From Campylobacterales bacterium (GTDB lineage Bacteria; Campylobacterota; Campylobacteria; Campylobacterales; Sulfurimonadaceae), in the NCBI GenBank assembly GCA_026390075.1, contig JAPLGP010000028.1:56312-100980 (forward strand): DNA of 44,669 nucleotides. The letters run 5' to 3'. A program made the translations under genes and the position numbers. Each line of letters begins with the position of its first letter. Position 1 is the first letter of the stretch. The notes beneath the pieces were generated by a model, which saw only the letters and a list, made by a program, of their open reading frames with translations, did not search any database and was not told the DNA's origin. Shown piece by piece: positions 6,571 through 44,445 of the stretch.

Positions 6571-7478
6571 TGCATAAAATCGCTATCGTCGGCTTAGGTG
6601 CAATGGGGAAAAATCACTACCGCGTTTTAAAAAGTATGAAAAGCGTGGAGATTGTCGGGCTTTGTGATGTTGTAAAAAATGGCGATTTTGATGAACCGTT
6701 TTATACAAACTTAGAGTTGATGCTTGAAGAGACACTTCCACATGCCGTAATCATTGTAACGCCTACTTTTTTACATAAGGAAGTGGCGTTAGCGGTTGCT
6801 GCTAGAGATATAAATATGTTTATAGAAAAACCTGCTGCTTCAAATGTAAAAGATGCAAATGAGATGCTTATCGCGGTAAATGCAAGAGGTGTAAAGAGTT
6901 GTGTTGGGCATGTGGAAAGATTTAATCCTGTGGTCAAAGCTCTTATAAAAGAGATAGCAAACCATGAAATTTTATCTATTTCTATCACAAGAAGCGGTTC
7001 ATTTCCTTCTCGCATTGCCGATGTTGGAATTTTGACGGATTTATCTGTGCATGATAGCGATTTGATACGATTTATTACCCAAAAAGAGATAGTAAAAAGT
7101 GCAGTTTTTAAATCGCAAAAAATCCATAAAACACATGAAGACAATGCTATTTTGGCTTTTGAGTTAGAGGGCGAAGTGGTAGGCGATATCACGACAAACT
7201 GGTTCACACCTTTTAGAAAAAGAAGTATCATCGTTGCATGTCGAGAGACAAAAGAGTCTGCGATAAAGTATTTTGAAGCAGATTTAATCTCGCAATCACT
7301 GAGCGAATACATCAACATAGACGGGAACTCTCATAGCACAAGAGCTTGTTTTATACAAAGAAGCGACGCACTCAGCGATGAACTCGAAGCTTTTGTACAT
7401 TACTTAGAAACAGGCAACAGAGGCTCTTTAGCTTCGATAGAAGATAGTATAATCACACTCGAAATAGCAAGTAAATAG
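6570..7478 (+). CDS. Gfo/Idh/MocA-family oxidoreductase (GnnA/WbpB type)
   Basis: A 302-residue NAD(P)-dependent sugar oxidoreductase. The N-terminal Rossmann motif is [12 protein letters not shown] (residues about 4-15), followed by the family EKPAA motif near residue 91 and the [10 protein letters not shown] and [12 protein letters not shown] blocks of the substrate domain. It starts at an ATG overlapping the aminotransferase stop (TAATG). In the GnnA/GnnB pair this enzyme oxidises the 3-hydroxyl of UDP-GlcNAc before transamination; that assignment is from context. Motif sites at 6738 and 6907 encode LPHAV and GHVER. Confidence 0.82.
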
Positions 7479-9062: not shown

Positions 9063-10811
9063 CTATATTTGGTTTAAATGTTTTAAAAATTCATCTGGTT
9101 TGACAAAACCTGTAATAGTTTTAGCTTTTAGAACTTCACCTTTTTCATCAAAAAAGAGTATCACTGGAGGACCAAAAACTCCATATTTTGCGCTCAAATC
9201 TTTTTGCTCTTTGGAGTTTTCAGTTAGATTGGCTTGGATGAGAACAAACTCACTCATTTTATCTTGAACTTTTGTATCTGAAAAAGTAACTTCTTCAAGC
9301 TCTTTACAGGAAGTACACCAATCAGCGTAAAAATCTAACATGATTTTTTTGCCTTTGTTTTTTGCTAAAAGGGTATCCAACTCTTTTAAGGAACTCACTT
9401 TTATAAATTCCACATGCCGAGCTTTTTCTTTTGAGGTACTATTTGTTGCTTTTAAAAACTCGAGTGGTTTACTCATACTTTGTGAACCGCCGAGTGCGCC
9501 AATGAAGAGAGAAACGGAGTAGATAAAAAGGATAATAGCAATACTCTTTCTAAAAATATGAACACCTGGCTCAAAAGCTTCGAGATAAATCGCAAAACTA
9601 ATTCCAAGTAGAGACCATAAAATCATAGTAATATAAACATCAACAACTTTTTCTAGCATCCAAATAGCAACACCAAGCATCATCACACCAAAGATAGCAT
9701 TGACCATAACCATCCAATGCCCTGGTTTTGGCATAAATTTCCCAGCACTCACACCAACTACAAGGAGTGGAAGTCCCATTCCTATGCTCATAGCAAAGAG
9801 TGCCGCACCGCCTAGAAATGCGTCGCCAGTTTGACCTATGTAAACTAAAGCTCCTGCAAGTGGAGCAGCAACACATGGACCAACGATAAGAGCCGATAAA
9901 AAGCCCATCACTGCAACACCTAAAATGCCTCTGTGTTGTCTTGATTCACTCACGGATGTGAGTAAAAAAGAGGGTGGTTTTAACTCATAAAATCCAAACA
10001 TACTCATTGCAAGTGCAACAAAGATAGCTGAAAAAGAGAAGATAACCCAAGGTGTTTGAAGAGCTGCTTGAAGGTTTGAGCCAAAAAGACCAGCTAAAAC
10101 ACCAGCGATAGTATAAGCAACAGCCATCGCCAAAACATAAATGAGCGAAAGAAAAAATGCTTTTTTCGTTGTTAAGCCTTCGCCTTGAGAGATAATAATT
10201 CCAGAAATAATTGGAATCATAGGAAAGGTGCATGGAGTAAGAGCGAGTAAAAGACCAAAACCAAAAAATGTTAAAAGAATGAGACCAAGACTTCCTGAAA
10301 TAATTGTATTTGCAATAGAATCAGCTTCTGAGAATTCTTTTGGCTTAGCATCTGATTTTTTAACTTCAGAAGCTTCTTGTTTTACACCCAGTTTTGAACT
10401 ATCTACATCAAACGAGTATGTTTTACTCAGTGGCTCATAACAAAGACCTTGTCCAGAACACCCTTGATAGGAGAGTTTGAACTCTACTTTTTTGATATCT
10501 TTAGTATCACTACTTTTTTGTAAATGAACAAGAAAGTCAGGTGATTCTAAATAAACCATAGCATCATCATGCTTCACACTTTTAGGCGACACTATCTCTT
10601 TTATTTGTATTATATTACTCGTGTCAATGATTTCAAGTGTTACTTTATCTTCGTACAAATAGATATCTTTTGCGATTGTAACACCCGCTTCAATCTGCAT
10701 TTGTTCATTTATCTTGGCATGTGGAATAAACGCTTCATCAGGCATTAAAAATTTAGGAGGTGCTCCAAATAAAAAAACACTTAGAAATAGAAATAGAATA
10801 ATTTTTGACAT
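9063..10811 (-). CDS. dsbD: Thiol:disulfide interchange protein DsbD
   Basis: A full three-part DsbD, about 582 residues. It has a signal peptide (MSKIILFLFLSVFLFGA), a periplasmic alpha domain with the CSGQGLC cysteines near residue 120, a membrane domain of about eight segments with the paired cysteines in ALTPCTFP and VGPCVAAP, and a C-terminal thioredoxin domain with WCTSC near residue 500. It carries electrons from cytoplasmic thioredoxin to periplasmic thiols. An in-frame ATG at 10826 adds five residues; I chose 10811 because it gives the cleaner signal peptide. Motif sites at 9410 (HVEF) and 10716 (IPHAK) lie in the soluble domains. Confidence 0.93.
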   Translation of the reverse strand: MSKIILFLFLSVFLFGAPPKFLMPDEAFIPHAKINEQMQIEAGVTIAKDIYLYEDKVTLEIIDTSNIIQIKEIVSPKSVKHDDAMVYLESPDFLVHLQKSSDTKDIKKVEFKLSYQGCSGQGLCYEPLSKTYSFDVDSSKLGVKQEASEVKKSDAKPKEFSEADSIANTIISGSLGLILLTFFGFGLLLALTPCTFPMIPIISGIIISQGEGLTTKKAFFLSLIYVLAMAVAYTIAGVLAGLFGSNLQAALQTPWVIFSFSAIFVALAMSMFGFYELKPPSFLLTSVSESRQHRGILGVAVMGFLSALIVGPCVAAPLAGALVYIGQTGDAFLGGAALFAMSIGMGLPLLVVGVSAGKFMPKPGHWMVMVNAIFGVMMLGVAIWMLEKVVDVYITMILWSLLGISFAIYLEAFEPGVHIFRKSIAIILFIYSVSLFIGALGGSQSMSKPLEFLKATNSTSKEKARHVEFIKVSSLKELDTLLAKNKGKKIMLDFYADWCTSCKELEEVTFSDTKVQDKMSEFVLIQANLTENSKEQKDLSAKYGVFGPPVILFFDEKGEVLKAKTITGFVKPDEFLKHLNQI

Positions 10812-10892: not shown

Positions 10893-11246
10893 TTAAAATG
10901 TGATGACTTGTTTAGAATTTATAACCCAATTTGAAAGAACTTCCATAGTAGAAGATATTTTCTCATCAAAATAGGGTTCATTTTTGAAAATACCACATCG
11001 TGCATTACAAGTTCCACATGCCTGTAAGTTTATGCCATTGGCATACATTTTTTTGAGCATTTCAACTAAATCATACTCATAATAATCAGGTTTAGCACTT
11101 TTATCACGCGCGAGATCAACAGCATCATTCATCAAAAAAACATTTACTTCTTCCCCATTTTTGTGAAGTGTTTTTGCCAGTCGCAAAGCATTCCAAGTGA
11201 CATCCGTTCCATCATAGGGCTGATGATTGAGTATTATAGTTATCAT
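10893..11246 (-). CDS. DsrE-family sulfur-carrier protein
   Basis: About 117 residues, starting at the ATG at 11246 preceded by GGAGGAAG; the longer frame upstream is rhodanese sequence read out of phase. The fold matches DsrE/DsrF-like proteins: ITIILNHQPYDG at the start and NVFLMNDAV in the middle. It has a cysteine cluster ACGTCNARCG near residue 75, of which one Cys is the usual persulfide carrier in this family. There is no signal peptide, so it is cytoplasmic. The start overlaps the rhodanese stop (ATGA). It probably accepts or relays sulfane sulfur. The cysteine cluster overlaps a motif site (11014-11022, ACG). Confidence 0.8.
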   Translation of the reverse strand: MITIILNHQPYDGTDVTWNALRLAKTLHKNGEEVNVFLMNDAVDLARDKSAKPDYYEYDLVEMLKKMYANGINLQACGTCNARCGIFKNEPYFDEKISSTMEVLSNWVINSKQVITF

Positions 11247-11809: not shown

Positions 11810-12184
11810 ATGCTAGATATGAAACAAAAAATAAAAATTTTCAAAGCACTTGGGAATGAGACTCGTTTTTTAATTTTTAAAAATGTGTTTACGGGTGGTT
11901 ATACTTGCTCAATTGACAAAAAAGATAAAAATGTAAAAGTAAGTCCACATGCCACTTGTGTGAGCACAATTGCAGAGCATTTTGATTTTGCCCTGCCTAC
12001 TATTTCAAAGCATCTCAAAGAACTCAGAGAAGCGGACATCATCACGATGGAAAAAAAAGGGAATAAAATATATATAGAACCAAATATAGAAACTATTCGT
12101 GAACTTGGTGGCTGTTTTACTACACTTGTAGAAAATTTTGAGATAAACCGAGAACTCTTTTTTGGAGATGTTGCCGTAAGTTGA
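11810..12184 (+). CDS. ArsR-family winged-helix regulator, possible sulfur/persulfide sensor
   Basis: About 124 residues. I chose the ATG at 11810 because AAGGA (11800-11804) precedes it; an ATG at 11795 adds five residues without a ribosome site. The core is IFKALGNETRFLIFKNVF, and the recognition helix region is FDFALPTISKHLKELREADII, followed by the wing. Three cysteines stand out (YTC, HATC, GGCF; residues about 33, 50 and 102 from this start). BigR/SqrR-type ArsR proteins sense persulfides through two such cysteines, and the divergent rhodanese-DsrE-DsbD genes fit that role. Arsenic or metal sensing is the alternative. Confidence 0.8.
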   Translation: MLDMKQKIKIFKALGNETRFLIFKNVFTGGYTCSIDKKDKNVKVSPHATCVSTIAEHFDFALPTISKHLKELREADIITMEKKGNKIYIEPNIETIRELGGCFTTLVENFEINRELFFGDVAVS

Positions 12185-14421: not shown

Positions 14422-17400
14422 ATGTTCAAAAATAACAAAGCATCTATATTAAACAAAGTCATACTCTTAACATCCACTTCGATTTTTACGCTCTCATTCT
14501 TTGTTTTTGTATTTTATTCTTATTTTAATATTCAAGAAATGGATGCTAATCTAAAAAGCACTCTATCGGATCGTTTGAAGGTAATGCCGAGCACGGTAAT
14601 AAACACCGTAATAGTTGGTGATTTGGCGACGGTAGAGCAGATATTACAAGGGTTTGTAATCGATAGAGATATTGCAATCATAAGATTTAAAAGTTCTTCT
14701 GGTGCAACAATAGAGGTCACGGATTCTTCCTATAAATCAAATGCACCACAGTGGTTTATAAACGCTATGGGAATAAAAGATATTGCAAAAAGCACTGAGG
14801 TTGAAGTTGGTGGGTTTAGTTATGGCACGATAGAAGTTGTCGCTACTCCAAAGTTTTATATTGATGAGATATACAAAGATTTATTGACGGCATGTGGATT
14901 ATTTATAATTTTTATAGTGGCAAATGTTTTTTTCGTTTGGTATGTGTTACGAAAAGGTTTATTACCAGCACTCAAGGCTATTGAAAATGGGGCAGATGCT
15001 ATCTCGGAGGGAAACTTTATTTTCATCAAAGAAAATAGTGCAAAAGAGTTACAAACAACTTTTAAAGCTTTCAATACAATGGTTTTGGCAATTAAGAAAG
15101 ATAGAGAACTCTTAGAAAATCAAGCTTTGCAGATAGAATCAATAACGAACACTATGCTTGAAGCTCTCTATGTTACTGATATAAGTGGCAGAATAATAAG
15201 TGTAAATAAGTATGCGACAAAATTGCTAGGTTATGCTAAAGAAGAGCTTTTAGGTAAAAGTGCACATGACCTCTTTCATACAGATTCTGCAAATAAAACG
15301 CCGATTTCTAAGTGCAATATCTATCAAGTTATCCAGAAAAAATCAGAGTATATTGGTGAAGATAAATTTTATGATAAGCATGGAAAAGAATTTTTTGTTG
15401 AGGTTGCAGCCAAAGTATTGATTGAAAACGATAGAGTTATTGGTTCGGTAGTAACTTTTAGGGATATTTCAGAGCAAAAAAAATATCGTGACACACTCTT
15501 AAAATTATTAGAGTCAAGTCCTATTGCGGTAAGAATTGCTCAAGAAAATGGCAAAAAGGTGGTTTTTGCCAATAGAGCGTATTCGTCCCTCATTAAACTT
15601 GAACAAGAAAATGTTATTGGTCAAAATCCTAAAAACTATTATGCTAACAGGGAAGAATACGATGCTATCGTCGAGCAAATTAGCCATAATGAACCTATTC
15701 ACAATAAACTAGTTCAGCTTAATGTAGAAAATAAAATTCGATGGGCATTAGCATCCTATATGTCAATGGAATTTGAGGGTGAAGAAAGTGTTTTAGGTTG
15801 GTTTTATGATATTACTGATCAAGAGTCACAAAAGATGGAACTTCAATTTCAAAAAGAAAAGGCAGAAATTGCTAACAGAGCCAAAAGTGAATTTTTAGCA
15901 AATATGAGTCATGAGATACGAACACCTCTCAATGGAGTTTTAGGCTTAACTGAATTGGTTTTAAAAACAAATCTTGATGCACAACAAAGAGATTATCTTG
16001 AAAAAGCAAAAACCTCTTCTAAAGCACTTTTGTATGTTATTAATGATGTGCTGGATTATTCTAAGATAGAAGCAGGAAAATTAGAGTTAGAGCATCGTCT
16101 TTTTGAGCTTGAGAGTGTGATGAAAAATATAGTAAATTTATTTGAATATCAAGCAAATAAAAAAGGATTATCGCTCAATATATCTAGTTATAACAAACTC
16201 ACCCTTGTCGGTGACGCACTTCGTTTAACTCAGATACTTACAAATATAGTAGGAAATGCAATAAAGTTCACAGAAAAAGGTTCTATCAATATAAAAATTG
16301 AGCTGATGCATGAGGATGAGCACTATAAAAAGTTAAAGTTTTCCATAAAAGATAGTGGGGTTGGAATGAGTAAAGCGCACCAAGAAAATCTCTTTAGAGC
16401 GTTTACTCAAGCAGACAGCTCCATAACGCGTCAGTATGGAGGAACAGGGCTTGGTCTTTCTATCTCTAAACGACTTGTTCAGATGATGAGCGGTGAAATC
16501 TGGGTGGAGAGTAAAGAGGGTGTGGGAAGTGAATTTATTTTTAGTGCTACTTTTGCAAATGTGGATGAAAAAGAGGAGAGAGTAATCATAGAAGTAGAGA
16601 GTGCAAAATTAAATACTGACTCAATAAAAGGTGCAAAAATATTGCTAGTAGAAGATAATAAAATAAATCAAACTGTAGCAATCGGAATGTTGGAAAATCT
16701 AGCAATTACAGCAGATATAGCAAATAACGGTAGGGAAGCCGTGGATAGGATAGAAGAGGGTAGAGAATATGACCTTGTTTTAATGGATCTTCAGATGCCA
16801 ATCATGGATGGATTTGAAGCGAGTAAACAAATCAAAAAAATAAATGAAAACATTCCAATAATCGCACTGAGTGCAGCTGTAATGCAAGAAGATATAATAA
16901 AAACAAGTGAAGCTAAAATGTCTGCTCATTTAGCAAAACCTATCAATGAAGATGAACTCATTCGCACTCTATTGCAATTTATAAAACCAAAAGAATCTAA
17001 TAAACAAGTTTTTAAAGAGGAAGAAAAAGCATTTCCACATGCCGTGTCTGAATTTTATGGAGTAAATTTAGAAGAGTTAAAAAATAGAATTGGCGATAAA
17101 CCAAAAACAATCATAAAACTGCTTTCAAGCTTTTGTGAAGAGTTTGGGGACATTGAACAGATTTTAGATATATCAAAAATAGAGACAGATGAATTTAATC
17201 ATGCGCTTCATTCACTCAAAGGCGTGAGCGGAAATATCTCACTTAAAGATATATATAAACTCTCAAAAGAGATATATGAGACAAACGATTTGCAAGTAAA
17301 AAAAGAGAATGCCCCAAAACTCATTGAACTACTCAAAGAGACCGTGAAAAATCTCACGCTTCAACTCAGCCAAGAGGCGAATGAAGTGACACACAAAGAG

Positions 17401-17619
17401 TACAAAAAAGAGGAAATCCTGAAATATTTACAAGGTATTCAAAAAGATATAAAACATTTCAGAGCTATAACTGGGGAAAGAGTTGCGTTGTTAGAAGAGA
17501 TGTTATTTTGGCATGTGGAAGTTGAGATAATAAAAGAACTTTCTTCTTCTCTTCTTGGCTATAAATATAAAGAAGCAGATAAAATGTTTAGTGATATTTA
17601 TGCGTTGTTGGCGGACTAA
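14422..17619 (+). CDS. Hybrid sensor histidine kinase (HAMP-PAS-PAS-HisKA-HATPase-REC-Hpt)
   Basis: A 1065-residue membrane kinase. It has a membrane segment at about 13-32, a periplasmic region to about 150, a second segment at about 152-174, then a HAMP-like linker and two PAS domains (about 240-355 and 360-470). HisKA carries the phospho-accepting His in MSHEIRTPLNG near residue 494. The ATPase domain ends GTGLGLSISKRL. The receiver domain (LLVEDNKINQ near 740) has its Asp in LMDLQMP, and a C-terminal Hpt has HSLKG near 930. All relay residues are present. It follows the PhnD-like lipoprotein directly and precedes a REC-GGDEF protein, giving a probable phosphorelay to c-di-GMP. Motif sites at 14889, 17035 and 17510. 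Confidence 0.9.
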   Translation: MFKNNKASILNKVILLTSTSIFTLSFFVFVFYSYFNIQEMDANLKSTLSDRLKVMPSTVINTVIVGDLATVEQILQGFVIDRDIAIIRFKSSSGATIEVTDSSYKSNAPQWFINAMGIKDIAKSTEVEVGGFSYGTIEVVATPKFYIDEIYKDLLTACGLFIIFIVANVFFVWYVLRKGLLPALKAIENGADAISEGNFIFIKENSAKELQTTFKAFNTMVLAIKKDRELLENQALQIESITNTMLEALYVTDISGRIISVNKYATKLLGYAKEELLGKSAHDLFHTDSANKTPISKCNIYQVIQKKSEYIGEDKFYDKHGKEFFVEVAAKVLIENDRVIGSVVTFRDISEQKKYRDTLLKLLESSPIAVRIAQENGKKVVFANRAYSSLIKLEQENVIGQNPKNYYANREEYDAIVEQISHNEPIHNKLVQLNVENKIRWALASYMSMEFEGEESVLGWFYDITDQESQKMELQFQKEKAEIANRAKSEFLANMSHEIRTPLNGVLGLTELVLKTNLDAQQRDYLEKAKTSSKALLYVINDVLDYSKIEAGKLELEHRLFELESVMKNIVNLFEYQANKKGLSLNISSYNKLTLVGDALRLTQILTNIVGNAIKFTEKGSINIKIELMHEDEHYKKLKFSIKDSGVGMSKAHQENLFRAFTQADSSITRQYGGTGLGLSISKRLVQMMSGEIWVESKEGVGSEFIFSATFANVDEKEERVIIEVESAKLNTDSIKGAKILLVEDNKINQTVAIGMLENLAITADIANNGREAVDRIEEGREYDLVLMDLQMPIMDGFEASKQIKKINENIPIIALSAAVMQEDIIKTSEAKMSAHLAKPINEDELIRTLLQFIKPKESNKQVFKEEEKAFPHAVSEFYGVNLEELKNRIGDKPKTIIKLLSSFCEEFGDIEQILDISKIETDEFNHALHSLKGVSGNISLKDIYKLSKEIYETNDLQVKKENAPKLIELLKETVKNLTLQLSQEANEVTHKEYKKEEILKYLQGIQKDIKHFRAITGERVALLEEMLFWHVEVEIIKELSSSLLGYKYKEADKMFSDIYALLAD

Positions 17620-17620
17620 G

Positions 17621-19297
17621 ATGAAAAAACAAACTATTTTAATAGTAGATGATGAGAGTACAAATATATCTGTTTTAGTAGAAATACTTTGCGAAAAATA
17701 TAATCTCTTAGTTGCGACGGATGGTACGACAGCATTAGAAATCGTAAATTCAAATGAGGAAGTTGACCTTATTTTACTTGATATTCTTATGCCTAAAATG
17801 AATGGCTATGAAGTGGCGTATCAACTAAAACATACGAAAAAAACATCGAAAATTCCTTTTATCTTTTTAACAGCAAAGAGCGATAGCAAAAGCGTTGTCA
17901 AAGGTTTTTTAGAGGGAGCAGTGGATTATATATCGAAGCCTTTTGCCAAAGAGGAGCTTTTAGCCAGAGTGCATAACCATCTTCAATTTCATACACTCAA
18001 CAGTGAACTCTTTCAAAATAAAAATTTTTTACAATCTGTTTTGGACTACTCAACACATGCGATTATTACTACAGATACAAATGGCACGATTACACTCTTC
18101 AATAGAGCTGCACAACTGATGTTAGGATATAGTTCAAGAGAGTTGGTTGGCAAGAAATCACCAGCTATTTTTCATGACATAAACGAAATTCAAGAAAGAG
18201 CAGATGAGTTTTCAAAAGAGTTAAACACAAAGATTGAGGTAGGATTTGATGTATTTGTTGCAAAAAGCAGAGAAGGATTTGAGAACACACATGAGTGGAA
18301 ATATATAACAAAAAACAAAAAAACAATTATTGTTAATCTTGCAGTGAGTGCACTCAGAGATGATGCCGGTGAAATTATTGGATATATTGGCATAGCAGAA
18401 GATATTACCCAGAAAAAAAGAGATGAAAAAAAGATAGCACAATATTTAGAAATTATGGATAAAAATATCATCTCCTCTTCAACGGATTTAGATGGCACTA
18501 TAGTTGAGGTTTCAGAGGCATTTTGTAAACTAACGGGTTATTCAAGAGAAGAGCTCATAGGGAAAAGTCATAATATTTTACGGCATGTGGATATAAAAGA
18601 GAGTGCATATAAAATAATGTGGGAGACCATAATCAACAATGAAATATGGAAAGGCGAAGTAAAAAATAGAAGAAAAGATGGTTCTCTCTATTGGGTAAAT
18701 GCAACGGTATTTCCACTCTTAGATGATGAAGATACAAAAATAGGGTATATGGCAATACGACAAGATATTACAGATAAAAAGCGAATAGAAGAGTTGTCTA
18801 TAATGGATGAACTTACAAAACTCTACAACCGTCGCTACTTCAATGAAGTTTTTGCGAGTGAGCTTAATCGTGCAAAAAGAGAAAATAAAAGCATCTCATT
18901 TTTGATGTTAGATGTAGATTATTTTAAATTATACAATGATACTTACGGGCATCAAGAGGGTGATTCTATACTCTCAAAAATAGGTGAAGTTTTAAATACT
19001 TTTTCAAAGCGTGCAGGGGATTTTGCTTTTAGACTTGGTGGAGAAGAATTTGGAATAATAGTCCATGAAGATAGCCCCGAGGAAGTACTAAAGTTCGCAA
19101 ATAATCTTCTCAAAGCAATAGAAGCACTCAACATTCCACATGCCAAGAACTTAGTTTCAAAATTTGTAACGGTTTCCATAGGTTTAGTTTATAAAAATAT
19201 TGACAAAACAACTACAGTAGAGACTCTCTACAAAGAAGTTGACGAGTGTTTATATAGAGCAAAAGAGTCTGGAAGAAATAGGCTTGTGAGTAGCTGA
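17621..19297 (+). CDS. Response regulator diguanylate cyclase (REC-PAS-PAS-GGDEF)
   Basis: About 558 residues from the ATG one base after the kinase stop; a longer in-frame extension overlaps the kinase and is not needed. The receiver domain has ILIVDDE and the phospho-acceptor in LLLDILMP (residue about 51). Two PAS domains follow, the second with ILRHVDIKES and GEVKNRRKDGSLYWV. The GGDEF domain carries an intact GGEEF near residue 475 and an RAGD inhibitory site five residues before it, so it should make c-di-GMP and be product-inhibited. The kinase upstream is the likely phosphate donor. Motif sites at 18582 (RHVD) and 19136 (IPHAK). Confidence 0.92.
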   Translation: MKKQTILIVDDESTNISVLVEILCEKYNLLVATDGTTALEIVNSNEEVDLILLDILMPKMNGYEVAYQLKHTKKTSKIPFIFLTAKSDSKSVVKGFLEGAVDYISKPFAKEELLARVHNHLQFHTLNSELFQNKNFLQSVLDYSTHAIITTDTNGTITLFNRAAQLMLGYSSRELVGKKSPAIFHDINEIQERADEFSKELNTKIEVGFDVFVAKSREGFENTHEWKYITKNKKTIIVNLAVSALRDDAGEIIGYIGIAEDITQKKRDEKKIAQYLEIMDKNIISSSTDLDGTIVEVSEAFCKLTGYSREELIGKSHNILRHVDIKESAYKIMWETIINNEIWKGEVKNRRKDGSLYWVNATVFPLLDDEDTKIGYMAIRQDITDKKRIEELSIMDELTKLYNRRYFNEVFASELNRAKRENKSISFLMLDVDYFKLYNDTYGHQEGDSILSKIGEVLNTFSKRAGDFAFRLGGEEFGIIVHEDSPEEVLKFANNLLKAIEALNIPHAKNLVSKFVTVSIGLVYKNIDKTTTVETLYKEVDECLYRAKESGRNRLVSS

Positions 19298-19346
19298 ATG
19301 ATATTTTCTTTTAGGATTTTGTAGGCATCTTCTTGTTTAAAAAAAT

Positions 19347-19355
19347 CCACATGCC
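19347..19355 (+). other. Intergenic uptake-like motif CCACATGCC
   Basis: One of only four motif copies outside genes. It lies in the 118-base spacer before nadA, 27 bases upstream of the nadA -10 box, and is part of the 35-copy family. Confidence 0.85.
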
Positions 19356-21357: not shown

Positions 21358-21366
21358 GGCATGTGG
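21358..21366 (-). other. Intergenic uptake-like motif (GGCATGTGG on + strand)
   Basis: Falls between repeat copy C and flhB, directly before the flhB ribosome site (AGGAGA, about 21371-21376). Confidence 0.8.
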
Positions 21367-21381
21367 AAGTAGGAGACTTAA

Positions 21382-22434
21382 ATGGCTGATGACGCAGAAA
21401 AGACCGAAGAACCCACCGACAAGAAGATAGAAGATGCCAGAAAAGAGGGGAATGTACCAAAGTCCCAAGATGCTTCGGGTGTTGTTACTCTTTTTGTAGC
21501 TATTCTTGCACTTTTAATGCTTTTTCCATTTATGGCTGAGCATATGCTTCGTTTGTTTAAATACTATTTTTCACTCATTGGCACACCGTTAGATAAACTT
21601 TTTATGATTGATATAGCTTTGATTACTATGAAAGAAATTCTTTTGATGGTAATGCCATTAGCCTTTGCTGTTGCTGTTGCTGGTGTTCTTGCCGCTATTT
21701 CACAGTTTGGATTTTTATTTACACTTGATGCCATTCAACCAAAATTTAGTAAAATTAATCCGATTTCTGGCATGGCAAATTTATTTTCAATGAAAAAAAT
21801 TGCTGAAAGTATAAAAATAACTTTTAAGTCATTTATAACGCTTGGTGTAGGATTTCTTTATTTTTTTTATTTTATTAAAGAACTTCCAACGGTGGCTATG
21901 TTCGGACTGCATGACCAATTAGATTGGCTTGTACATAAGATGCTTATTATTGCTTTTGTAATGCTTTTTATAACTTTTATCTTTGCAATAATCGATGTTA
22001 TTATGGTTCGAAAACAGTACTTTGATGGCTTAAAGATGAGTAAGCAAGAGATAAAAGATGAGATGAAAAATATGGATGGAGACCCGCTCATAAAGTCTAA
22101 AATCCGCCAAATTCAGATGCAATCTGCAAGAAAAAGAATGATGGCAGAAGTTCCACATGCCGATATTGTCATTACAAACCCAACACACTACGCTGTTGCT
22201 ATAAAATATGATGAACAAAAATCACGCGCACCAATAGTGGTCGCAAAAGGTATGGATCACATTGCGCAACAAATTAAAAAAATAGCAAGAGAAAACAATG
22301 TGCATATTGTTCAGAATCCACCACTAGCAAGAAGTTTATACAAAGAAGTAGAACTTGATAAAGCCATCCCAGAATCATTGTTTGCAGCTGTGGCAGAGGT
22401 TCTTGCTTATGTTTATAAGATGAATAGAAAGTAA
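21382..22434 (+). CDS. flhB: Flagellar type III export protein FlhB
   Basis: A 350-residue inner-membrane component of the flagellar export gate. The N-terminus (EKTEEPTDKKIEDARKEGNV) is the family signature, followed by four membrane segments between about residues 30 and 210. The cytoplasmic domain has the autocleavage motif NPTH near residue 266, which switches export from hook to filament substrates. The region just before it, EVPHADIVITNPTH, is usually VPKADVVITNPTH; the Lys-to-His change is produced by a motif copy at 22153-22161. It is separated from the other flagellar genes, which start at 37502. Confidence 0.96.
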   Translation: MADDAEKTEEPTDKKIEDARKEGNVPKSQDASGVVTLFVAILALLMLFPFMAEHMLRLFKYYFSLIGTPLDKLFMIDIALITMKEILLMVMPLAFAVAVAGVLAAISQFGFLFTLDAIQPKFSKINPISGMANLFSMKKIAESIKITFKSFITLGVGFLYFFYFIKELPTVAMFGLHDQLDWLVHKMLIIAFVMLFITFIFAIIDVIMVRKQYFDGLKMSKQEIKDEMKNMDGDPLIKSKIRQIQMQSARKRMMAEVPHADIVITNPTHYAVAIKYDEQKSRAPIVVAKGMDHIAQQIKKIARENNVHIVQNPPLARSLYKEVELDKAIPESLFAAVAEVLAYVYKMNRK

Positions 22435-30704: not shown

Positions 30705-31708
30705 TCGATAACGACTTTTTTATGAACCTAGCCTTGCAAGAGGCTTGGAAATATCAAGGTTTAACTTATCCAAATCCAGCAGTTGGTTGCACCATTGTTG
30801 GAAAATATAACGAAATTTTAGCTGTAAACGCACATCAAAAAGCTGGAACTCCACATGCCGAGATTCTAGCACTTCAAGAGACTTATTTCAAACTCACAAA
30901 AGACGCATCCATTTTAAACATAACGATTTCAAGTGAAATTCACAACTTTCTTTTAGCAAATCATAATGGATGTTTTAAAGATATTTCTCTTTACACAACC
31001 TTAGAACCTTGTTCTCATCAAGGAAAAACACCCTCATGTGCTACACTTATTGCAAATTTAGGAATCAAAAAAGTATTTGTAAGTTCTCGTGATTTGAATG
31101 AAGAAGCGGCATGTGGAAATGAGAAACTCTTGGCATGTGGAGTTGAAGTGGAGAGTGGTGTCTTGCACGAGAAGTGTGAGAGTCTTTTAAAACCTTTCGG
31201 CATGTGGAAGAGAGACAAATTTGTCTTTTTTAAATGGGCGCAAAGATTAAATGCAACTACAGATGATGGCGTGATAAGTTCAGAGAGTTCCAGAAAAACC
31301 GTTCATGCTATGCGAGATGTGTGTGATTTGCTCATCATCGGTGGAAATACAGTGCGAGAAGACAGACCAACACTTGATGCGAGGCTGGTCAGTGGCAAAG
31401 CACCCGATGTTCTCATCCTCTCAAGAGAAAAAGAGTTTGACAGAACTATACCTCTTTTTGGTGTGGCGGGGAGAAAAGTAATTATTTCAGAGAACTTATC
31501 CACATGCCAAGAGTATAAAAATATCATGATTGAAGGAAGTTCAAAAATGTTTGAACTCACAAAAGATATTGTGGATTATTATTTATGTTTTATCGCACCT
31601 AGTTTTGGCGGAAGCAGTGGATTTGAAAATCAAGAGGAAAAATTTGAGATTTTAAATTTACACCAAGATGCGCAAGATATAATTATTTGGATGAAAAGGA
31701 AGATATAA
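30698..31708 (+). CDS. ribD: Bifunctional riboflavin biosynthesis deaminase/reductase RibD
   Basis: A 336-residue RibD. The deaminase domain (residues about 1-145) has the zinc-site TPHAEILAL and the Cys pair in PCSHQGKTPSC. The reductase domain follows (FFKWAQRLNATTDDG, HAMRDVCDLLIIGGNTVREDRPTLDARL). There is a 20-residue insertion between the HAE and PCSHQGK motifs. Five uptake-like motif copies (30851, 31108, 31132, 31199, 31500) fall in this gene, three within 100 bases, giving PHA, ACG, ACG, GMW and STC; the first coincides with the catalytic HAE. The C-terminus is the least conserved part. Confidence 0.92.
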   Translation: MVIDNDFFMNLALQEAWKYQGLTYPNPAVGCTIVGKYNEILAVNAHQKAGTPHAEILALQETYFKLTKDASILNITISSEIHNFLLANHNGCFKDISLYTTLEPCSHQGKTPSCATLIANLGIKKVFVSSRDLNEEAACGNEKLLACGVEVESGVLHEKCESLLKPFGMWKRDKFVFFKWAQRLNATTDDGVISSESSRKTVHAMRDVCDLLIIGGNTVREDRPTLDARLVSGKAPDVLILSREKEFDRTIPLFGVAGRKVIISENLSTCQEYKNIMIEGSSKMFELTKDIVDYYLCFIAPSFGGSSGFENQEEKFEILNLHQDAQDIIIWMKRKI

Positions 31709-31710
31709 CT

Positions 31711-32448
31711 ATGCATAAAAGAGAAGAAAACCAAAGAAAAGAGAAACAAAACAAGATAGTTTCGATGTTCGATAACATCGCACCGACTTATGATACTGCA
31801 AACCGTGTGATGAGCATGGGTGTGGATAAAAGTTGGAGACGCAAAGCCTGTGACAAAGCCTATAACTTTTACAACAATGATTCAATAGATAAAATCGTAG
31901 ATGTGGCATGTGGAACTGGCGATATGATGGATTACTGGAGAAGCAGAGCAGAAATCAGCGGTATTGCGATTGGCGAAATTGTTGGAGTTGACCCATCGGT
32001 CGGAATGGTTGATGTTGCGCGTGAAAAATATCCTAAGTTTAACTATCATATCGCAAAAGCGACAGAAATTCCTCTCTCAGATGCGAGTGCCGATATTTTG
32101 AGTATCACTTATGGTATTCGGAATGTTGTTGAGAGAGAAGCAGCACTTAAAGAGTTCAACCGTGTTTTAAAACAAAATGGTTTAGTCGTGATTTTAGAGT
32201 TTATGAGAAATGAAAATCCCTCTTTACTTGGGAAAATCAGAGATTTCTATATGAATAAGATTCTGCCAAAAGTAGGCGGATTTATCTCTAAAAACTTAGA
32301 AGCGTATGAGTATTTGCCAAACTCAATCGGAGATTTTGCAACAGTTGGACAGATGAAAAAAGAGTTAGAAGATGCTGGATTTGTCATACTTTATGCAAAA
32401 AGTTTTTCTATGGATATTTCCACACTCCTCATTGCACAAAAAGTTTAA
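31711..32448 (+). CDS. ubiE: Demethylmenaquinone methyltransferase (UbiE/MenG)
   Basis: About 245 residues from the ATG at 31711, two bases after the ribD stop, with AAGGA upstream; an ATG at 31687 inside ribD is the longer alternative. It is a class I SAM methyltransferase with the UbiE signatures MFDNIAPTYDTANRVMSMGVDKSWRR, VDVACGTGDM (SAM site), ITYGIRNVVEREAALKEFNRVLK and the closing MDISTLLIAQK. In this phylum it would act on demethylmenaquinone. Motif copy 31905-31913 encodes the ACG of the SAM motif. Confidence 0.93.
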   Translation: MHKREENQRKEKQNKIVSMFDNIAPTYDTANRVMSMGVDKSWRRKACDKAYNFYNNDSIDKIVDVACGTGDMMDYWRSRAEISGIAIGEIVGVDPSVGMVDVAREKYPKFNYHIAKATEIPLSDASADILSITYGIRNVVEREAALKEFNRVLKQNGLVVILEFMRNENPSLLGKIRDFYMNKILPKVGGFISKNLEAYEYLPNSIGDFATVGQMKKELEDAGFVILYAKSFSMDISTLLIAQKV

Positions 32449-33698
32449 TGCAAACACTTAGTGTTTCATCACTCAACGAGCAGATAAAAACTCTTTTAGA
32501 GACTAGTTTCTCTCATGTTTTTGTTGAGGGTGAAGTCTCTCGCATCACTTTTCACAACAGCGGACATATCTATTTTACGCTCAAAGATGCCACTTCCGCC
32601 ATTAGTGCTGTGATGTTTAAAGGCAATACTCAAAAGCTAAAATTTCAGCTCAAAGAGGGTTTAAAAGTCATCTTAGATGGTGCGATTACGCTCTACAAAC
32701 CTCGTGGCGAATACCAAATAAACTGTTTTAACATCGAACCAGCAGGGCGTGGAGCTTTGGCTTTGGCGTATGAGCAACTCAAAGAAAAACTCTCCTCTCA
32801 GGGTTATTTTGACTCATCACGAAAAAAAGAACTTCCTAAGTTTCCCTTTCGCATAGCACTTATTACCTCTGCAACAGGGGCAGCTTTACAGGATATGCTT
32901 AGAGTTGCCAACAGCAGATATAAACTTTTAGAGATAGACATTTATGATGTTTTAGTCCAAGGAGAGAGTGCAGCGTCAGCGATTGCACATGCCATAAAAG
33001 TGAGTGATACGAAAGAGTATGACATCCTAGTCATCGGTCGTGGCGGTGGAAGCATAGAAGATTTGTGGGCTTTTAATGAAGAGGTTGTAGCCAATGCCAT
33101 TTTTCATGCTAAAACTCCGATAGTCTCGGCTGTCGGGCATGAGATAGATTGGGTCATAAGTGATTTTGTAGCAGATTTAAGAGCTCCAACTCCAAGTGCC
33201 GCAATGCAGATGATTTTGCCAGATATGAATGAACTTTACCAGTCTTTAGATGCCATCGCATCGCAGTTTTCACAGATACTTTCTCAGAAAATTTTTAACA
33301 AACGGCAAGAGCTATCGCATCTTTTCAACTCCTATGCACAGCACTCCATAGAGAAAAAATTGAAATTAAAATCCGAGGAAGTGCAACGACTCAAAGAGAG
33401 TTTTACACAACTTATCTCGTTTAAAATGCAAAACTTTACAAAAGAGCATGAGCATATCAAAAGTAGATTTCCACATGCCATTGATTCTCTGGTAAATCAT
33501 AAGCTAAATCAACTTTTGAATCTTCAAAAAATGTTAGAATCCAACAATCCAAAATTTAAAAGTAAAAGCGGTTTTGCACAAATTTCACAGAATTCTAAGG
33601 TAATTGATTTGTCATCTTTGAGTGAGAATGATATTTTTGATGTTCAGAGTGCTGAGATTAGTATAAAAGCGAAGGTACTTAAAAAAAGCCATATTTAA
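32448..33698 (+). CDS. xseA: Exodeoxyribonuclease VII large subunit
   Basis: A 416-residue XseA with an N-terminal OB fold (VEGEVSRITFHNSGHIYFTLKD), the catalytic core (LITSATGAALQDMLRVANSRY, VLVQGESAASAIAHAI, IGRGGGSIEDLWAFNEE, VSAVGHEIDWVISDFVADLRAPTPSAAMQM) and a C-terminal coiled coil. It degrades single-stranded DNA with the small subunit XseB, which is not in the window. It starts in the ubiE stop (TAATG). A motif copy at 33471 (FPHAI) lies in the coiled coil. Confidence 0.95.
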   Translation: MQTLSVSSLNEQIKTLLETSFSHVFVEGEVSRITFHNSGHIYFTLKDATSAISAVMFKGNTQKLKFQLKEGLKVILDGAITLYKPRGEYQINCFNIEPAGRGALALAYEQLKEKLSSQGYFDSSRKKELPKFPFRIALITSATGAALQDMLRVANSRYKLLEIDIYDVLVQGESAASAIAHAIKVSDTKEYDILVIGRGGGSIEDLWAFNEEVVANAIFHAKTPIVSAVGHEIDWVISDFVADLRAPTPSAAMQMILPDMNELYQSLDAIASQFSQILSQKIFNKRQELSHLFNSYAQHSIEKKLKLKSEEVQRLKESFTQLISFKMQNFTKEHEHIKSRFPHAIDSLVNHKLNQLLNLQKMLESNNPKFKSKSGFAQISQNSKVIDLSSLSENDIFDVQSAEISIKAKVLKKSHI

Positions 33699-34307: not shown

Positions 34308-34310
34308 ATT

Positions 34311-34336
34311 TTTCCACATGCCATGGCATGTGGAAA
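34311..34336. terminator. Bidirectional terminator-like palindrome made of two inverted uptake-like motifs
   Basis: A perfect 26-bp palindrome with half-site TTTCCACATGCCA. It contains CCACATGCC at 34314-34322 and its inverse at 34325-34333. It lies 4 bases after the FmdE-like gene and 5 bases before the convergent sppA end. A-rich and T-rich runs flank it on both sides, so RNA from either strand would form a stem of about 12 bp followed by U-rich sequence. Confidence 0.8.
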
Positions 34337-34341
34337 CAAAT

Positions 34342-35211: not shown

Positions 35212-36431
35212 TATTGTTCCTTTTTGAGTTCGCCGTTGATGTAAACTTTTGAGATATTATATCGATGCAATATTAAATGAAGTGCTAACTCATCCGTTGG
35301 TTCTTGGTCTAAATCTAGCACAATCATATCTGCATTTTTGCCCTCAGCTATTGCACCTGCATTGATTCCAAGTGCCTCAGCGGCGTGAATTGTAACACCT
35401 TTTATAAGAGCCTCAGCAAATTTTACAAGAGGCGCATTTGCGTGCATAAAAAGAGATATTTTCATCTCTTCAAACAAATCGAGTTTATAGTTTGAACTTA
35501 AACCATCGGTTGCTACTATCCATCTTATATTATTGTCATTGAGTTCTTTGATGTTGAGTGTTTTATTTCCTAAAAGTCTATTTGAAATAGGGCAATGAAT
35601 AACTGTGTGTCCATTCAAAGAGAGCTTTTTTAACTCTTCATCATTTGCTTGTACGACATGAGTAAGAAGCGTACCAAACCCATCAAAATGCTCTAAAAAC
35701 TCTTTTGAATCACTCACCGCAGAGTTTTGTTTTAGAAATTTTTCAAAGAATTCTTTAAACTCACCCTCATTTTCATCCAACCATCGTCTCTCAGCTTCAC
35801 TTTCCATGAAATGAGCGGTAAGTTTCAGGTTCTCATTTTTTGCGATTTGTATCGCTTTTTTGACTAAAATCGGATGCACAGAATAGGGCGAATGGATAGC
35901 AATCGCAGGAGTAAAACCCTCTCTATTTACGGTTTTTGAAGCATCCAGTCTTGCTTTAAAATCAGCAAAAAGTGCATCTGCCATTGTCGCTTGTGAACCG
36001 ATAAGTTCATTAAAAAAGAGTACATTTTGAGGTGCATTTGCACAGGCTTCCAAATCCATTCCATGTGAACTTATCGCTCCAAAAGTTGTAATTCCACATG
36101 CCAACATAGTATCAATTGCTTTTTGCATACAGTCGTTTTTACATCCACCCACAAGGGTCTCTCTATTTTCTATCACACTATAAAGCCAATTTATAAAATC
36201 ACCATAACTTAGCTCAGTTTTATTGGCACTAAATTCTATGTGAACATGCGCATTTATAAGCCCTGGCATCAAGAGTGAATTCTTCTGAAGTTTTGTTATC
36301 TTGGCATGTGGAAACTCTTTTTGTAACGCATCAAGAGGTGCTATTTTGTGAATCTTTTTATCAAAAGCAACCGATACATTACTGAGTAATTTGTCTGGAG
36401 TGAGTATAAAGTTTGGTACTATTATTTGCAT
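35211..36431 (-). CDS. Amidohydrolase, possible aminodeoxyfutalosine deaminase
   Basis: A 406-residue TRZ/ATZ-type metal hydrolase with complete metal ligands: LMPGLINAHVHIEF (HxH near residue 60), KLTAHFMESEAER, THVVQANDEEL, HCPISNRLLG and VATDGLSSNYKLDLFEEM (catalytic Asp). This family includes the deaminase that turns aminodeoxyfutalosine into futalosine in menaquinone synthesis, and a homologue is commonly annotated so in this phylum; the ubiE gene nearby fits. Another aminohydrolase of the family cannot be excluded. Motif copies at 36094 (ACG) and 36303 (FPHAK). Confidence 0.78.
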   Translation of the reverse strand: MQIIVPNFILTPDKLLSNVSVAFDKKIHKIAPLDALQKEFPHAKITKLQKNSLLMPGLINAHVHIEFSANKTELSYGDFINWLYSVIENRETLVGGCKNDCMQKAIDTMLACGITTFGAISSHGMDLEACANAPQNVLFFNELIGSQATMADALFADFKARLDASKTVNREGFTPAIAIHSPYSVHPILVKKAIQIAKNENLKLTAHFMESEAERRWLDENEGEFKEFFEKFLKQNSAVSDSKEFLEHFDGFGTLLTHVVQANDEELKKLSLNGHTVIHCPISNRLLGNKTLNIKELNDNNIRWIVATDGLSSNYKLDLFEEMKISLFMHANAPLVKFAEALIKGVTIHAAEALGINAGAIAEGKNADMIVLDLDQEPTDELALHLILHRYNISKVYINGELKKEQ

Positions 36432-37016: not shown

Positions 37017-37505
37017 ATGTACTTAAAGTGTAAATTAAATGAGAGTTTAACAACTTTCAGGGGTTTACACTTTGGGTATAAAAAGAGTAAAAAAAGCTCT
37101 CACAGATATAAAGTTACAGTAGGCATAGGTGGAAATGTTGGAGATGTCAAACGAAGATTTGAGCATCTTTTTGTACATTTAAAAAAAGACAAAAGAGTAG
37201 AAATTTTGCAAACGGCGTTGATTTTGAAAAATCCTCCTTTTGGTTTTATAGACCAAGATGATTTTTTTAACTCAATTATTGTTTTACAAATTAGTATGCA
37301 ACCGATGAAATTTTTAGATTATTTGATGAGATTAGAAAAGAGATTTGCAAGACGAAGAAGTTTTGCAAATGCCCCAAGGACTTTAGATTTGGACATTATA
37401 TTTTTTGATAAAAGAGTTGTTAAAAGTGACAAACTTACAATTCCACATGCCAACTGGTCTCAGAGACAGAGCGTTTTGATTCCATTAGCTGGTTTAAAAA
37501 AATGA
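37017..37505 (+). CDS. folK: 2-amino-4-hydroxy-6-hydroxymethyldihydropteridine pyrophosphokinase
   Basis: A 162-residue HPPK with an N-terminal extension of about 35 residues before VTVGIGGNVGDVKRRFEHL. The family blocks FFNSIIVLQ, RLEKRFARRRSFANAPRTLDLDIIFFD and IPHANWSQRQSVLIPLAGL are present; the last is usually IPHPRLHER, and the Ala here comes from a motif copy at 37443. It adds pyrophosphate to the pterin in folate synthesis. It overlaps flhF by four bases (ATGA). Confidence 0.92.
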   Translation: MYLKCKLNESLTTFRGLHFGYKKSKKSSHRYKVTVGIGGNVGDVKRRFEHLFVHLKKDKRVEILQTALILKNPPFGFIDQDDFFNSIIVLQISMQPMKFLDYLMRLEKRFARRRSFANAPRTLDLDIIFFDKRVVKSDKLTIPHANWSQRQSVLIPLAGLKK

Positions 37506-38776
37506 AAATACTTACATTTACTGGTAAAACACCATCCGAAGCTTTAAAAAAAGCAAAGCAAGAGATTGGTGATGAGGGTATGCTCATCGAGACAAGAGAA
37601 ATTCAAAAAAAGGGACTCGGTCGTGAGCCTCTTTATGAGATTGTCATAGGTATAGAAGAGAAGCAAACAGCGACTACTTATTCAAAAGTCAATAAACCAT
37701 TACATAATCATCAAGCACCAGTTTTAAAACAGAGTGAAGATGTGCTTTTTGATATTTCAAGTGCTGCGCAACAGATATCTAAAATATCGGATGTAACAGA
37801 TCCTAATTATTCATACGCAAATGCTAAAGTTCCACATGCCAACATCGAGCCAAAAGAGTTAAAAGAGATTAAATCCGAGATTTTAAAACTTGGCGATAAA
37901 ATTAAACTGATACAAAATATGTTTTGGGATGAAAAAGCACCAGACATTGAGAGTCAGATTCCATCAGAATTTGCTGAAATATATCGTCTAGCATCTCAAA
38001 GTGGGATGAATAAAGAACATCTTGATGCTATTATGCAGATGACTTTGCAACATATGCCATCTAAAATGAGAGAAAATTCTGCAACTGTAAAACGCTATTT
38101 TCAAACATTACTTCGAAAAATGATACCGATTCGACTTGAGAGTTTGCCAGATAAAAATCACAAAAAAGTTATTATGCTTGTGGGTCCAACGGGTGTTGGT
38201 AAAACGACTTCCATAGCAAAACTAGCGGCGAGATACTCATTTTTGATGCAAAAAAAGTATAAAGTGGGTCTCGTCGTTTTAGATACTTATCGCATAGGTG
38301 CGGTTGAGCAGTTGATGCAGTATGCGAGAATGATGAAACTTGGCATTGAGACAGTTGTTGACCCTCCTGAGTTTTCTACAGCACTGAACTCTTTGAGATA
38401 TTGTGATTATATACTTATTGACACGATGGGTTCTAGCCCTTATGACAAGGGGAAAATCGAGAAAATCTATGAGTGCCTTGAAGCGAATGACACAGGATAC
38501 AGTATAGATGTTGTCCTCGTTATGCCAAGTTCTATAAAATATGAAGATTTAAAAGCAACTTATGATAATTTTGAGAGTTTAAATATTGATACAATAATGT
38601 TTACAAAGTTAGATGAAACAAGAGGTTTTGGAAATATTTTTTCACTAGCTTATGAGACAAAAAAGCCAATAAGTTATTTTTCTGTTGGACAAGAAGTACC
38701 AGAAGATTTGGTATATGCAAGTAGTGACTTTTTAGTTGAGTGCTTATTAAATGGATTTAATCGGAGCAAAGTATGA
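37502..38776 (+). CDS. flhF: Flagellar biosynthesis GTPase FlhF
   Basis: A 424-residue SRP-type GTPase that sets flagellum position and number at the pole. It has an N-terminal B domain ([23 protein letters not shown]), a variable linker, an N domain and a G domain with [18 protein letters not shown] near residue 228, [13 protein letters not shown] and [11 protein letters not shown]. The linker holds motif copy 37832 (VPHAN). It overlaps flhG by four bases. Confidence 0.95.
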
Positions 38777-43416: not shown

Positions 43417-44445
43417 ATGAAAAATAAAAAAGTTTTAATTGGCATGAGTGGAGGAGTTGATTCAACAATCTCCGCATTAATGTTAAAAGAAGAGGGGTAT
43501 GAAGTTGAAGGTTTATATATGAAACTTCATTCAAAACTTGGATATCATGAAATACACCAAGTAAGAGCGCAAAAAGCTGCAGATTTTGTTGGTATTAAAC
43601 TTCATGTTATAGATTTGCAAAAAATATTTAATGAAAAAGTTTTTCAACCATTTATAGATACTTATGCAGAGGGTAAAACACCAAATCCTTGTGCCTTATG
43701 TAATAGAAACTTAAAGTTTGGCGAAATGGTTAAATTTGCAGATAGTATCGGTGCAGCTTTTATCGCAACGGGACATTATATAAAAACCGATGGAAAATAT
43801 TTTTATGAAGCAGATGATGAGACGAAAGATCAAAGCTATTTTTTGTTTTATGTTCAAAAAGATATTTTAGGAAGATTGCTTTTTCCCCTTGGTGGTAAAA
43901 AAAAGAGCGATATAAAAAAAATGGCTTCTTCTGTAAAAGGACTGGAAAGTTTTGCTTCTCAAGGTGAATCAACCGAAATATGTTTTGTTGAGACTACTTA
44001 TACTGATTTATTAAAAGATTTTGTAGAAGTAGATAAAGTGGGTGAAGTTTTAGATAGTAGCGGTAATGTTGTTGGCGTACACAAAGGCTACATGCATTAT
44101 ACAATAGGTAAAAGAAAAGGCTTTTCAGTCAAAGGTGCGCATGATCCGCACTATGTAATAAGTATAGATGCAATAAAAAATCAGATAGTCGTCGGTAAAA
44201 AAGAGGAGTTGGCATGTGGAAGTGTTGTACTAAACAATCTAAACATGTTTAATGATGTAAAAGAGTTTGATACAACTGTGAAGCTTAGATACAGAACACA
44301 TGCCGTACCTTGTCATGTGGAAATTATAAATGACAAAGCATTCGTTACATTAAAAGAGAGTGTTTTTGGTGTTGCTGTTGGCCAGGCAGCTGTTTTTTAT
44401 GATGACGGAAAACTAATTGGCGGCGGTTGGATAACGCAAGCTTAG
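43417..44445 (+). CDS. mnmA: tRNA-specific 2-thiouridylase
   Basis: A 342-residue MnmA that thiolates U34 of Lys, Glu and Gln tRNAs. The PP-loop is GMSGGVDSTISALML (residues about 9-23). The catalytic cysteines appear in TPNPCALCNRNLKFG and STEICFVE, and GYMHYTIGKRKG follows. The C-terminal beta domain holds one exact motif copy (44211, LACG) and two mismatched ones (44296, 44312). It is the last gene before the rRNA-leader-like region. Confidence 0.95.
   Translation: MKNKKVLIGMSGGVDSTISALMLKEEGYEVEGLYMKLHSKLGYHEIHQVRAQKAADFVGIKLHVIDLQKIFNEKVFQPFIDTYAEGKTPNPCALCNRNLKFGEMVKFADSIGAAFIATGHYIKTDGKYFYEADDETKDQSYFLFYVQKDILGRLLFPLGGKKKSDIKKMASSVKGLESFASQGESTEICFVETTYTDLLKDFVEVDKVGEVLDSSGNVVGVHKGYMHYTIGKRKGFSVKGAHDPHYVISIDAIKNQIVVGKKEELACGSVVLNNLNMFNDVKEFDTTVKLRYRTHAVPCHVEIINDKAFVTLKESVFGVAVGQAAVFYDDGKLIGGGWITQA

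Follow-up and report, generated by a model that had tools for sequence, protein, structure and literature searches.

A dispersed motif with core CACATG in part of the genus Sulfurimonas, probably an uptake sequence, and its head-to-head pair in the fmdE–sppA gap

Known dispersed motifs and the Sulfurimonas motif

The DUS and the USS, restricted to the proteobacterial families Neisseriaceae and Pasteurellaceae, have been described as the only known cases of uptake sequences (PMC12616744). The DUS has an essential inner core, and its inverted pairs are associated with terminators (PMC3630211). The Sulfurimonas motif described here resembles it in being a 10–12-bp motif present in hundreds to thousands of copies with a short, change-intolerant inner core, and in having many copies within genes together with intergenic inverted pairs, which in the DUS are tied to terminators (PMC3630211, PMC12616744). 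However, the DUS has a CTG core and belongs to Betaproteobacteria, whereas the Sulfurimonas motif contains no CTG on either strand and belongs to Campylobacterota. The DUS also has the receptor ComP and occurs in dialects, whereas the motif-rich Sulfurimonas species share one motif.

The USS of Pasteurellaceae is similar in having a short core motif, comparable copy numbers and inverted pairs, linked in that family to rho-independent terminators (PMC12616744). It differs in its GCGG core, absent from both strands of the Sulfurimonas motif, and in its phylum; the USS receptor is itself only predicted (ComN/PpdA). AT-rich flanks are a feature of the USS, as they are of the Sulfurimonas motif. 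Since the motif shares the architecture and lacks both the CTG and the GCGG core, it is not a member of the DUS or USS by descent. A search of openly accessible journal papers for uptake sequences in combination with Campylobacterota or Sulfurimonas found nothing; for Epsilonproteobacteria one paper came up.

The third comparison is with cyanobacterial HIP1 (GCGATCGC), which is likewise short and dispersed, reaches a very high copy number and is abundant in a lineage-specific way. HIP1 is self-palindromic and linked to orphan methyltransferases (PMC4390886). The Sulfurimonas motif, by contrast, has no such symmetry; it has an inner core and AT-rich extensions, and its inverted pairs lie at gene ends. 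On the basis of the observations below, it is quite probable that the palindrome reported here joins head to head two copies of a dispersed uptake sequence, with consensus AWTTCCACATGCCR and invariant inner core CACATG, present in a subset of Sulfurimonas.

The palindrome between fmdE and sppA and its motif

The source is a draft genome of Sulfurimonas (Campylobacterota) of 2.40 Mb in 61 contigs, its genus taken from named relatives that were retrieved by means of sppA; the window is the whole stretch of 44,669 nucleotides that was analysed. Profile matches identify a gene for a FmdE-domain protein (PF02663; 33708–34307, + strand) and, facing it, sppA, encoding signal peptide peptidase S49 (PF01343; 34342–35211, − strand). 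They are separated by a convergent intergenic gap of 34 bp (34308–34341, no strand assigned). The perfect palindrome of inverted motif copies that the earlier note placed between these genes is exact at 34311–34336. Its 26 bp read TTTCCACATGCCATGGCATGTGGAAA and are composed of two abutting copies of AWTTCCACATGCCR, as 13-mers TTTCCACATGCCA placed head to head, so that either strand can form an RNA hairpin (strand therefore not assigned). The two TCCACATGCC half-sites lie at 34313–34322 (+ strand) and 34325–34334 (− strand).

The possibility that this palindrome is a chance or purely local structure is negligible. The 26-mer is present at 17 places in the genome at no more than two mismatches, 8 of them exact, while the reversed control gives 0. 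In addition, the same gap holds full inverted pairs in three relatives (G137, G116 and G056), whose loops measure about 12 nt or longer, and degenerate ones in G111 and G045. Given the loops in these relatives, the loop-less palindrome of the source genome may derive by shortening from an older pair. In the motif-rich G117 (L114) the fmdE–sppA gap is 2.1 kb long and contains inserted genes, with near-identical motif-bearing sequences at both ends.

The window has 34 copies of the 10-mer TCCACATGCC, or 44 when one-mismatch copies are included, against 1.4 in shuffled sequences. The whole genome has 1302 copies, 639 on the + strand and 663 on the −, and the reversed control 1; an 806-kb sample has 454 against 0.87 expected. 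The following details of the motif are all from this 806-kb sample. One-mismatch variants of the 10-mer number 185 against 27 expected, and nearly all are altered at positions 1, 2, 9 or 10. At positions 3–8 (CACATG) each variant is found 0–2 times, near chance level. Judged by this over-representation of variants, the core is intolerant and the periphery tolerant. The flanks favour A at −3, T at −1, A or G at +10 (93–100%) and A at +11, giving AWTTCCACATGCCRA when added to the 10-mer. It follows from these preferences that the 26-mer is two full half-sites abutting without a gap, and the extended half-site proposed earlier holds up. The commonest variants include G or A at position 2 and C at position 1. 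Near-copies changed at position 1 or 2 (TGCACATGCC, TACACATGCC and ACCACATGCC) are also seen in the window, at 3761, 4100, 12370, 20494, 23347 and 32984, and are possibly weaker functional forms.

Apart from the two half-sites, the motif search of the window located copies on the + strand at 1495–1504, 3235–3244, 6737–6746, 9409–9418, 11013–11022, 11944–11953, 17034–17043, 19135–19144, 19346–19355 and 22152–22161, and on the − strand at 1615–1624, 2047–2056, 2890–2899, 4491–4500, 6907–6916, 10716–10725, 14889–14898, 17510–17519, 18582–18591 and 21358–21367. Copies found by the motif search and also covered by orthologue comparison lie at 31499–31508, 36093–36102, 37442–37451 and 37831–37840 (+ strand) and at 31199–31208, 36303–36312 and 44211–44220 (− strand). 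Orthologue comparison shows that the copy at 30850–30859 (+) is kept in most of the rich species, and that those at 31108–31117, 31132–31141 and 31905–31914 (all −) are perfect in all seven rich species compared. The copy at 33470–33479 (+) lies inside xseA (exonuclease VII large subunit, 32448–33698); it is perfect in seven motif-rich species and altered in all four relic species. Elsewhere in the window, the gene for a DegT/DnrJ/EryC1 aminotransferase is divided between two overlapping reading frames (5463–5981 and 5947–6570) that match successive parts of one profile, which is a frameshift, either real or a sequencing error.

Gene context, inverted pairs and hairpins

Gene calls came from a simple caller based on hexamers and covered two samples of DNA, one of 406 kb consisting mostly of stretches picked for pairs (though not by gap type) and one of 400 kb not picked for pairs. 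In the 400-kb sample, 82% of motif sites (168 of 205) are inside genes, and these are mostly single. Convergent gaps in the same sample are enriched 12-fold and tandem gaps 2.9-fold, with 18 of the 22 tandem-gap sites closer to the 3′ end of the upstream gene; divergent gaps there have no enrichment (3 sites against 2.3 expected). Of 302 coding copies, 217 fall in the one reading frame that is preferred on their strand, and the resulting peptides are xPHAx, LACGx and similar.

Stretches that lack the motif were considered as possible mobile islands, with mixed results: one contains a filamentous prophage and another the ATP synthase operon. Since conserved operons such as the latter are motif-free as well as prophage, absence from mobile DNA provides no clean signature. 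The prophage example is a low-GC, motif-free stretch of 13 kb in contig C29 of G000, with filamentous-phage-like genes for a GPA/G2P replication protein and a Zot-domain protein (L010:11258–13920).

Inverted pairs were counted genome-wide, because the 400-kb sample held few of them, pair-bearing stretches being already in the other sample. With spacers of 0–12 bp, 34 pairs are head to head and 37 tail to tail, against about 2.3 of each orientation expected from motif density alone. A null model that keeps the sites within their gene-context class raises the expectation to 6.5 and 6.6, or about 13 in total against 71 observed. Direct pairs are not in excess (2 against 4.3 expected). The spacer is exactly 2 in 16 of the 27 head-to-head pairs in the 806-kb sample, and in half of the head-to-head pairs overall. 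The first 406 kb contain 38 inverted pairs within 30 bp; convergent gaps account for 21 of these, tandem gaps for 15 and divergent gaps for none. Two expectations of the earlier note are thereby borne out, namely that inverted pairs are commoner than motif density predicts and that they fall at convergent gene ends. It had also taken such pairs as independent support for uptake. The excess at gene 3′ ends is real, but a plain terminator repeat would fit it too, and the pairs are therefore not independent proof of uptake.

The inverted pairs begin a median of 10 nt past the nearest stop codon (quartiles 6–16.5), and their hairpins have median energies of −16.5 and −20.5 kcal/mol. A tail with at least 5 T in 8 is found on 30% of the sides of head-to-head pairs against a background of 11%; tail-to-tail pairs have no such enrichment (12% against 11%). 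The RNA fold at 34311–34336 has an energy of −18.3 kcal/mol on one strand and −18.8 kcal/mol on the other (z about −5), and a terminator scan of the + strand finds a stem of 11 pairs, 5 of them GC, with a tail, CAAATTTATT, that barely passes, where 0.7 hits are expected by chance. These features lend moderate support to the proposal that inverted pairs double as transcription terminators, and termination at 34311–34336 would be plausible. In the relic species G138 and G171 the hairpin in the sppA gap has been kept, with matched changes on both arms (TTTTTACATGCC..GGCATGTAAAAA) that break the CACATG core. Because the hairpin survives while the core does not, a separate hairpin function is suggested in this gap, in two cases only.

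It could be argued on this basis that the motif is primarily a hairpin repeat for transcription termination or RNA processing, and that the single copies in genes are left over or have spread from pairs. Such an origin would account for strong hairpins placed about 10 nt past stop codons, for their absence from divergent gaps, and for the survival of the hairpin in the two relics. It does not account for the large majority of sites in the 400-kb sample that lie within genes, mostly as single copies, and these genic singles are conserved between rich species far above their flanks and beyond codon constraint. Moreover, many congeners have an sppA gap of only 5–17 bp without any hairpin, and the T-tracts are weak. 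We regard this explanation as improbable.

Rather less improbable, though still unlikely, is a site bound or methylated by a factor that acts across the chromosome and is unrelated to uptake, such as a nucleoid protein, a segregation protein or, as proposed for HIP1, an orphan methyltransferase. HIP1 is a precedent for an abundant dispersed motif tied to methyltransferases and not to uptake (PMC4390886), and the gain or loss of a binding protein could produce lineage-specific gain or loss of its site. However, the Sulfurimonas motif is a non-palindromic 10–12-mer with AT-rich extensions, unlike the palindromic HIP1, and pairs with exact spacing near stop codons, together with avoidance of divergent gaps, fit uptake sequences better. 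A polar segregation site or a Chi-type site would be expected to have a strand skew by contig, whereas the contigs are alike in strand use (p = 0.37).

Distribution, decay and a possible uptake system

Eleven of 135 congeners are rich in the motif, with 1302, 1298, 887, 859, 840, 758, 721, 401, 357, 314 and 260 copies, figures that include some incomplete assemblies; the named motif-rich genomes are metagenome assemblies, as are most of the relatives. G000, G117, G137, G056, G116 and G127 are among the rich species. Eight congeners have 31–183 copies, and the remainder of the 135 have 13 or fewer. Outside the genus, the 11-mer occurs 0–1 times in 39 genomes representing further genera and families of the same order. 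De novo k-mer counts show that all rich species sampled share TCCACATGCC. The odd arms in some sppA gaps (TTTTTACATGCC and TTTGCACATGCC) resembled DUS dialects, but according to the k-mer counts are mostly decayed copies. Samples of 20–40 kb from motif-poor congeners contain no other motif of comparable abundance. A palindrome, TTACATGTAA, occurs 5 times in 20 kb of the motif-poor G011 (L031) against 0.03 expected, and related words, TACATGTA, are frequent in G032 and G055.

Conservation was compared at about 10–17 orthologous sites per species, mostly around sppA and hence not independent between species. In seven rich species the sites are perfect in 15/16, 12/14, 10/13, 10/14, 9/17, 8/12 and 5/10 cases, where background 10-mers predict between 3.5 and 0.8. 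The proportion identical is thus 50–94%, against 8–22% for other 10-mers. In the relics G138, G172, G166 and G171 the corresponding counts are 2/17, 0/14, 1/12 and 0/16 (expected 3.1 to 1.5), and identity at motif positions is equal or close to that of the flanks.

In a tree built on one gene, sppA, the relic clade G166/G138/G172 adjoins the rich G117 and G000 (supports 100/98, 99/89 and 100/99), and G171 with G043 forms a second few-copy lineage nested among rich ones, with weaker support (91/68). Since the first clade is nested beside rich species, and its motif has decayed while the flanks stayed conserved, maintenance of the motif has been lost there. Conservation that stops with the flanks still similar cannot be explained by protein sequence or gene order, but can be explained by loss of a trans-acting user of the motif. 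More telling evidence for uptake than the inverted pairs comes from the many single copies in genes, which are conserved at their positions and, in sister species, have decayed.

The same alignments bear on the idea of a mobile repeat family of the REP/BIME or MITE type that inserts copies, to which the high copy number and the palindromic arrangement of some copies might point. The conserved unit is only about 12–16 bp, and coding sites differ from their motif-free orthologues by substitutions in gapless alignment, so that the motif has not spread by insertion. A mobile repeat is largely refuted and is very improbable.

The source genome has an intact comEC (ComEC of 420 aa), a T2SS-like ATPase, GspF, GspG and nine pilin-like genes; the literature searched holds no record of natural transformation in these species. 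ComEC is found in nearly all congeners, whether they bear the motif or not, which implies that presence of the motif depends on something besides competence as such. Plausibly, this is the specificity of the receptor. In the repertoires of 15 species, no pilin group is confined to motif-rich species, the groups being common to rich, relic and poor ones. Loss of comEC was considered as the cause of decay and rejected, because relics G166 (in the relic clade of G138) and G171 keep the gene intact. The apparent absence of comEC from G172 was also set aside, since the whole dnaB–comEC region is unmatched and an assembly gap is likely. In contig C15 of G138, comEC is split by an insertion of 8.1 kb (L212:2224–10345) with an apparent 5-bp target duplication, GTCTC. 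The insertion carries TnsA-like, KwaB (Kiwa defence), UDG-family and radical SAM genes and a pilin-like reading frame, and may be later than the motif decay.

With the motif as an uptake sequence, the following mechanism can be proposed. Free DNA that carries the motif would be recognised by a receptor on the cell surface, probably one of the minor pilins of the competence apparatus, and the uptake of kin DNA through ComEC would be favoured. Recombination of the imported DNA would then spread the motif and preserve its copies at homologous positions, as a form of molecular drive. Copies within genes would be tolerated in the frames that give harmless residues, as in the peptides listed above. 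Where two inverted copies fall in a short gap at gene 3′ ends, the RNA would form a stable hairpin about 10 nt past the stop codon, which probably ends transcription from one or both sides. We infer uptake function, receptor, drive and termination each from sequence. The uptake-like character of the motif seen in the earlier note holds up, and the comparative data strengthen the uptake reading, which we regard as probable.

It is probable that this motif of Campylobacterota represents a third uptake-sequence system, one that evolved independently and has a new core, CACATG; it would be restricted to a portion of one genus in which it has been lost at least twice, with relic motifs remaining in sister species. 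A third origin in another phylum, if true, would mean that evolution has repeatedly produced the tagging of DNA as self. With rich, relic and empty species side by side in a single genus, there would then be a natural experiment on how such a tag spreads, persists and decays, and the comparison of sister species would offer a route to the receptor.
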